Notes under the pieces: model-generated | The model's input: only the letters and a program-made list of their open reading frames with translations | Databases searched by the model: none | What the model was told of the DNA's origin: nothing | Assembly (NCBI RefSeq): GCF_014203045.1 | Contig: NZ_JACHIF010000001.1 | Coordinates: 992,001 to 1,056,000 of the forward strand | Direction: 5' to 3' | DNA length: 64,000 nt | Origin: Prosthecobacter dejongeii | GTDB taxonomy: Bacteria > Verrucomicrobiota > Verrucomicrobiia > Verrucomicrobiales > Verrucomicrobiaceae | Part shown: piece by piece, positions 3,425 to 4,157 of the stretch | Layout: the number at the start of each line of letters is the position of its first letter | Numbering within the stretch: position 1 is the stretch's first letter | Made by a program: the position numbers and the translations under genes

Positions 3425-3533
3425 AGCCCTAAAGGGGCGTAACAACAAAGCCCGGGGCAAGCGAGCCTCAGCGAGTGCAGCCCTGGGATTTCAACACCTC
3501 TTCGTCTCTCAAAAAGAGCCCTGAAAGGGCGAG
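3425..3533 (+). repeat. Left inverted arm of the RAYT element
   Basis: Contains an outer block at 3425-3439 (AGCCCTAAAGGGGCG, a variant), a middle block at 3446-3487 and an inner block at 3517-3533 (AGCCCTGAAAGGGCGAG). Each has its reverse complement in the right arm at the mirrored distance. The 29 bases between the middle and inner blocks are not conserved between arms although their length is. Confidence 0.85.
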
Positions 3534-3570
3534 ACAATGACACGCACTTCAAACCCTCAACACCCTCAGC

Positions 3571-4020
3571 ATGTCTCCATCGCTCGCTCAGATTTATATC
3601 CACTTGGTATTCTCGACCAAGGACCGGGAACCTTGCATTAGCAACGCTATCCAGCCAAAACTGCATGCCTATCTTGCTGGCACCTTGAACGCCGTGGATT
3701 GCCCCGCGCTTTGTGTCGGTGGCATGCCTGACCATGTGCATCTTCTCTTTCGACTCGCTGGCACTGTCTCCCTCTCGGATGCGGTGAAGACCGCCAAGGT
3801 AGAATCTTCGAAGTGGATGAAGACACAGGGCCACATCGGCCACTTTACTTGGCAGTCCGGTTACGGTGCTTTTTCTGTCAGCGCATCCCAATTAGAAACG
3901 GTCACTCACTACATTCGAAATCAAGCCGAACACCACGTGGAACGAACTTTCCAAGATGAATTCAGACGCATGCTAGAACTCTACCAAATCGACTACAACG
4001 AGGCCTATGTATGGGATTGA
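3571..4020 (+). CDS. REP-associated tyrosine transposase (Y1/IS200-like)
   Basis: This 149-residue protein is a Y1 HUH nuclease. The metal-binding motif HVH is at 55-57 (context GMPDHVHLL) and the likely catalytic Tyr114 sits in HYIRNQAEHH. Length and motifs are normal for single-domain RAYT/IS200-like enzymes, and the reading frame is intact. RAYTs nick and move short palindromic REP elements, and mirrored hairpin blocks flank this gene on both sides. It is an insertion into the NAD gene group and not a functional member of it. Confidence 0.88.
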   Translation: MSPSLAQIYIHLVFSTKDREPCISNAIQPKLHAYLAGTLNAVDCPALCVGGMPDHVHLLFRLAGTVSLSDAVKTAKVESSKWMKTQGHIGHFTWQSGYGAFSVSASQLETVTHYIRNQAEHHVERTFQDEFRRMLELYQIDYNEAYVWD

Positions 4021-4048
4021 AACGCTTCATCTTCGAGCCCCCATGTGC

Positions 4049-4157
4049 CTCGCCCTTTCAGGGCTTGGACTCAGATTCTTTTCCCTTCTTTATACCCAGG
4101 GCTCCGCTCGCTAAGGCTCGCTTACCCTGGGCTTTGCTGCCACGCCCTTTCAGGGCT
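4049..4157 (-). repeat. Right inverted arm of the RAYT element
   Basis: Contains the inner block at 4049-4065 (exact reverse complement of 3517-3533), the middle block at 4095-4136 whose ends CCCAGGG and CCCTGGG pair perfectly, and the outer block at 4143-4157 (CGCCCTTTCAGGGCT). Block order and spacing mirror the left arm exactly. Confidence 0.85.

Follow-up and report, generated by a model that had tools for sequence, protein, structure and literature searches.

Inverted three-hairpin arms around a HUH/Y1 transposase gene look like the composite REP of a group recorded as REP-free

The transposase gene and its two arms

We analysed a window of 64,000 nucleotides from Prosthecobacter dejongeii (contig NZ_JACHIF010000001.1, positions 992,001 to 1,056,000; the genome is called G000 here). 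Inside an NAD/ADP-ribose gene group, which includes two ADP-ribosylglycohydrolases, NAPRTase and others, two inverted arms of 109 bases enclose the gene of a 149-aa HUH/Y1 transposase, and the element spans window positions 3425-4157. Followed from its outer to its inner end, each arm starts with a short hairpin and continues with a middle hairpin that has an AG foot; a variable spacer then leads to a second short hairpin. The features are:

3425-3439, + strand: left outer mini-hairpin, its pairs retained with compensatory changes in an alignment of 17 arms
3451-3487, + strand: left middle hairpin, stem CCCGGGG/CCCTGGG, AG foot at 3449-3450, from the fold and the 17-arm alignment
3488-3516, + strand: left spacer of 29 nt, variable in sequence, 17 of 29 columns identical to the relative G033
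3517-3536, + strand: left inner mini-hairpin (3517-3531) and tag, 20/20 identical to G033
3571-4020, + strand: HUH/Y1 transposase gene, 149 aa, matching Pfam Y1_Tnp (PF01797) at 2.1e-25 and NCBIfam NF033573 above its cut-off
4046-4065, - strand: right inner mini-hairpin and tag, inverted copy of the left inner block
4066-4094, - strand: right spacer of 29 nt, 15/29 identical to G033
4095-4131, - strand: right middle hairpin, AG foot at 4132-4133, from the fold and the 17-arm alignment
4143-4157, - strand: right outer mini-hairpin, inverted copy of the left outer block

The outer (3425-3439 and 4143-4157), middle (3446-3487 and 4095-4136) and inner blocks (3517-3536 and 4046-4065) are inverted copies, and the distance from the start of the outer block to the start of the inner block is 92 in each arm. 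BLAST aligned the arms to each other over 113 inverted bases with 72% identity (E 3e-17), and none of 111 placebo positions of the same size in related loci gave an inverted repeat at E<1e-5. These results confirm the mirrored arms, with three blocks at matching distances in each, that an earlier note on this DNA had described. The same note held that the bases between the blocks differ but keep their length, and this was borne out, as the two spacers are unlike in sequence and both 29 nt long. Between G000 and G033, identity was 80-100% in the hairpin blocks, 52 and 59% in the spacers, 76-88% in flanking non-coding DNA and 92% in the gene. In the 17-arm alignment of the window's arm family, changes on both sides were kept at 4 of 21 predicted pairs. 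The foot of the middle hairpin reads AAAG in the window arms.

Both spacers (3488-3516 and 4066-4094) diverge more between G000 and G033 than the flanking non-coding DNA, which may be due to gene conversion or rapid change. Within the middle hairpin (3446-3487), GCGAGC is repeated directly in several copies of the family; in the left arm of the relative G067 (L022:1378-1480) it is an inverted pair, as the flipping of a short internal stretch would produce.

The protein carries the motifs DHVH, WQ, YIRNQAEHH and a C-terminal TFQDEF..YVWD. Sixteen member proteins have DH.H, WQ, Y---Q--HH and the C-terminal tail in common, with Q118 and H121-H122 invariant (n=16). The gene is under purifying selection (dN/dS 0.11, G000 against G033). 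An AlphaFold model (pLDDT 88.9) gave the ISDra2 and IS608 transposases with DNA as best PDB matches in Foldseek (E ~1e-8), TnpA-REP 4er8 being weaker (3.5e-5), and a sequence-profile search against the PDB returned the same IS200/IS605 set. The NCBIfam IS200/IS605 transposase model (NF033573) scored 65.5 bits against a cut-off of 55, whereas the RAYT model (NF047646) reached 24.8 bits, far below its cut-off of 80.

The earlier note had called the protein a RAYT, and this did not hold. A classical (class 2) RAYT is ruled out by YIRNQAEHH in place of Y---NP and by the NF047646 score; of the inverted REPs with GT[AG]G foot that go with that class, the inverted palindromic arms are present but the foot is not. 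The features of IS200/IS605 subclass 1.1 (Y[IV]ENQ, W[TS], near-identical copies) are also lacking, since the protein has YIRNQ and WQ and its paralogs are 39-48% identical. By motif and length the protein appears to fit TnpA_Y1 subclass 1.2 of Quentin 2018 (PMC6006769), a placement made apart from that paper's own profile HMMs and tree: it has DH[IV]H, WQ, Y---Q--HH, a length near 148 aa and the C-terminal tail, and, like the subclass as described there, few diverged copies per genome.

Gene-less copies, paralogs and relatives

The 15-mer AGCCCTGAAAGGGCG has 13 exact copies in G000. A covariance model of 17 arms found 13 arms of at least 70 bits, every one on contig C1: two of them enclose the gene, eight make up four gene-less pairs and three stand alone. 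The gene-less pairs (C1:385066/385200, 386663/386801, 432184/432318 and 435995/436128) are covariance-model matches whose inner tags lie 22-24 nt apart; the transposase gene thus occupies the place of the short centre of a REPIN, the name for gene-less inverted repeat pairs with a short centre at several sites. Of the genome-wide REP family expected in the earlier note, the family was found, as copies of whole arms in gene-less pairs, but it is low-copy and was found only on C1. The closest relatives of the protein are in G033 (92% identity), G042 (73%) and G067 (73%), where arms accompany the gene, as the note had anticipated. All three genomes hold gene-less arms too, in pairs in G033 and G042.

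Segmental duplication or recombination seems to have produced some of the gene-less copies. The copies at 432 and 436 kb have flanks in common. G000 has two REPINs 1.34 kb apart where G033 has a single one, as if recombination between two REPINs had removed or added the segment between them. Among the compared arm copies of G000, G033 and G042, we found no clean pair of empty and filled sites, and mobility is therefore only inferred. The single arm at C1:198604, beside what we take to be rpsA, is common to G033, and synteny with G042 stops after the adjoining gene, leaving no empty site. The arm at 388.86 kb is missing from G033, yet the junction is not clean, and the G033 pair at C2:491.9 kb corresponds to the repeat-rich 432/436-kb region, again with no empty site. 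Of four isolated arms inspected from other families, three lacked an inverted partner of at least 30 nt and the fourth had other inverted repeats.

Four further transposase genes of G000 are 39-48% identical to the window gene. Judged by eye, all four have the same arm order of short hairpin, AG-footed middle hairpin, spacer and short hairpin, in different sequences, and each paralog has a separate arm family. Arm copies in the own genome were counted for three of these families: the L003 family has at least 42 and the L004 family at least 40, dispersed over several contigs, and the L005 family has four, all local. At the L002 paralog (G000:C2:227861-231310), both flanks are long arrays of alternating hairpins over hundreds of bases.

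In a search of 48 genomes, 12 of the genus bear NAPRTase, and 3 of these 12 have the transposase with its arms; in G033 and G042 the gene lies at the same site of the NAD locus as in G000. Two genomes have arm remnants at this locus and no transposase gene. What G041 retains is a single degraded arm, which lies between orf131 and an ADP-ribosylglycohydrolase gene. In G034 a complete arm precedes the second ADP-ribosylglycohydrolase gene, and after that gene, in the transposase's place, there is a remainder of about 36 nt of the two outer hairpins. Both cases are probably gene losses. The other seven genomes have neither gene nor arm at the locus, mostly in a different gene order. The comparison with relatives suggested in the earlier note yielded gene-free loci and no clean pre-insertion site. 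In the NAPRTase tree, support is at the level of pairs (G000 with G033, G042 with G041). One gain followed by losses that left arms behind fits these data; there may also have been two gains at the locus. In six transposase-free genomes (G020, G005, G029, G022, G044 and G001; L260-L262 and L264-L266), a macro-domain gene stands before NAPRTase and not after it, and the NAD locus of G020 presumably also holds a KptA-like gene.

Arms and their layout across phyla

To survey related loci we used the best 80 matches of one peptide pattern, a sample that for this reason is biased to close relatives; 67 of them had at least 300 nt on each side. Inverted arms at E<1e-5 were present at 47 of these 67 loci, in eight named phyla, with the reservation that many records are metagenome bins whose phylum labels may be wrong. 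Within this sample from the best 80, arms were found in Verrucomicrobia (16/20), Planctomycetes (11/12), Bacteroidetes (8/20), Acidobacteria (3/4), Armatimonadetes (2/2), Fibrobacteres, Calditrichota and Hydrogenedentota (1/1 each) and at loci of unnamed phylum (4/4), and not in Sumerlaeota or Proteobacteria (0/1 each). The 20 loci without arms include 12 of the 20 from Bacteroidetes. Cross-paired flanks, used as a control, gave inverted arms in 8 of 200 cases. In G000 and the relatives from our genome set, arms occurred at 25 of 31 loci; the arms and the protein of G048, a member of the same family, appear to match those of Verrucomicrobium sp. BvORR034 exactly. Arm similarity followed protein similarity (Mantel rho 0.37; maximum of 500 permutations 0.23), a correlation that is partly phylogeny because related genomes share both.

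These arms would be at odds with the record of subclass 1.2. Quentin 2018 (PMC6006769) scores it 'no' for REP, reports it as generally without IS200-type terminal structures, places it mostly in Cyanobacteria and Bacteroidetes and counts 101 members. In contrast, having arms is the norm among the Verrucomicrobia and Planctomycetes loci that we examined. The literature that we searched, mostly titles and the opening lines of abstracts, did not mention arms at genes of subclass 1.2, and the 14-mer AGCCCTGAAAGGGC was absent from it.

Under strict hairpin criteria, the arm layout could be assigned for one flank or both at 34 of the 47 armed loci, and for both at 29. In this strict set the mean gap was 11 nt from the outer hairpin to the middle stem and 23 nt from the middle to the inner hairpin. 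With wide limits, 98 of all 134 flanks were laid out, against 3 of 134 when shuffled, and the gaps peaked at 9-13 nt (53/98) and 21-24 nt (34/98). Arm totals were equal in just 3 of 29 elements across phyla (mean difference 3.7 nt), and the arms measure 110/111 in G033 and 104/109 in G042. The 'exact' mirroring of the earlier note therefore describes the window copy and is not general, and the idea that an exact mirror is selected was rejected; the spacing classes are conserved.

An AG preceded the middle stem in 54 of 63 arms of the strict set, although AG was given no score bonus, and the base before it was C or T in 54 of 63; in the wide-limit set, 53 of 98 arms had the AG foot. The short hairpins carried the triloops GAA, AAC or AAA in 92 of 126 cases and their complements in four. 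Such strand polarity of triloop and foot is what recognition of single strands would leave. A conserved cleavage dinucleotide (CT) was sought beside the hairpins and none was seen.

A REPIN-like reading and its rivals

Like the RAYT or TnpA-REP systems of class 2, the element has a HUH/Y1 protein between inverted palindromic repeats, gene-less inverted pairs elsewhere, a low-copy gene with its own repeat family, and an AG at the hairpin foot as in GTAG. It differs from them in Y---Q--HH instead of Y---NP, in arms that each carry three hairpins where those systems have one REP, and in retaining only the AG of GTAG. With IS608 and ISDra2 of IS200/IS605 it has the fold, the HUH and tyrosine motifs and the subterminal hairpins with a 5' guide position in common; unlike these, it has long inverted-repeat arms of three hairpins each, no recent gene-bearing copies and inheritance at one site.

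The best explanation, and in our view a probable one, is a REPIN-like element whose central loop has been filled by its own HUH/Y1 transposase gene and whose arms act as single-strand substrates of that enzyme. The arms would be read as single-stranded DNA, the outer-to-inner strand of each folding into a mini-hairpin, the AG-footed middle hairpin and a second mini-hairpin. The NNAG-footed middle hairpin would correspond to a REP with GTAG guide, and the mini-hairpins on either side of it, whose triloops are of purine type (GAA, AAC, AAA), would frame it. By analogy with IS608 and REP enzymes, the AG foot would act as the guide; for a REP system, PMC8266576 proposes that A3G4 of the GTAG guide selects CT cleavage. 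The transposase would bind the arm hairpins in their single-stranded state, at replication forks for instance. It would use its tyrosine for cleavage, and it would mobilise or copy gene-less elements in trans, whereas its own gene would by now be fixed in the NAD locus and maintained by selection. The mini-hairpins might hold the DNA in place or offer a docking site to a second subunit, which is a guess. We observe the anatomy, the gene-less whole-arm copies, the purifying selection, the arm family of each paralog, the spread over many phyla and the arm remnants at gene-free loci; we infer binding, cleavage, the strand used and mobility. Arguing for this explanation are the gene-less pairs, the arm families of the paralogs, the 47 of 67 loci against the controls, the AG foot and triloops, the both-side changes, the arm-protein correlation, the dN/dS, the ISDra2/IS608 TnpA fold and the A3G4 precedent. 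Against it stand the missing clean empty and filled sites, the duplicate-like copies, the lack of a conserved CT site, the small families of the window (13 arms, all on C1) and of L005 (four, local), and the 20 armless loci.

The most serious rival, which we nevertheless regard as unlikely, is that the arms spread and change solely by homologous recombination, gene conversion and duplication, and that the transposase, having ceased to move them, now serves some other role on single-stranded DNA. The one REPIN in G033 against two in G000 is as recombination predicts, the common flanks of the 432- and 436-kb copies point the same way, and spacers more divergent than their flanks would be seen in patchy conversion. 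However, local duplication hardly yields the dispersed L003 and L004 arm copies on several contigs. An ordinary insertion sequence of the IS200/IS605 kind, which takes its gene along as one unit when it moves, would agree with the NF033573 score, the closest folds and the hairpins at both ends; it is disfavoured, and we give it very little credence, since G000 has no second near-identical copy, the gene lies at a single site in G000, G033 and G042, and the arms are inverted repeats that are also found gene-less. Least credible, if only slightly, is a chance position of the gene between host hairpins that terminate transcription or stabilise mRNA. The arms are intergenic and their stems stable, as such elements would be, but the same three-hairpin layout accompanies this enzyme across eight named phyla, each paralog has its own arm sequence, and triloops and AG foot are strand-polar.

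Within the REPIN-like explanation, a HUH transposase group that is on record as REP-free seems to have a composite REP in these arms. The conserved layout and the copying of whole arms suggest that the transposase may recognise the entire arm, as the earlier note had proposed. A bolder version, which we put at somewhat under an even chance, is that a further REP-moving HUH lineage, recorded as REP-less, reads a composite arm of about 110 nt and binds both arms as one multi-hairpin single-strand complex. If true, an AG-guided hairpin would be read between two purine-triloop mini-hairpins at conserved distances of about 11 and 23 nt, in a complex unlike the recognition of one hairpin per end by IS608 and known REPs. 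The enzyme group as described, with its regular arm layout, gene-less copies and an arm family for each paralog, offers many natural enzyme-arm pairs in which to study what a REP transposase reads in DNA, and would correct the view of subclass 1.2 as having 'no REPs'. The element remains a variant of the REP/REPIN theme.

The 1.34-kb segment between the two REPINs of G000 (C1:385313-386662, L209) presumably contains small toxin-antitoxin-like and DUF2200-like genes. A separate repeat of about 230 bases, with ends like CGTAGGGCGGGTGTG / CCGCCCTACGAGGG, adjoins REPIN copies; at G000:C1:385313 and 388973 (L209) it directly follows the REPIN end on the right, it occurs also in L211, and it looks like a miniature inverted-repeat element.
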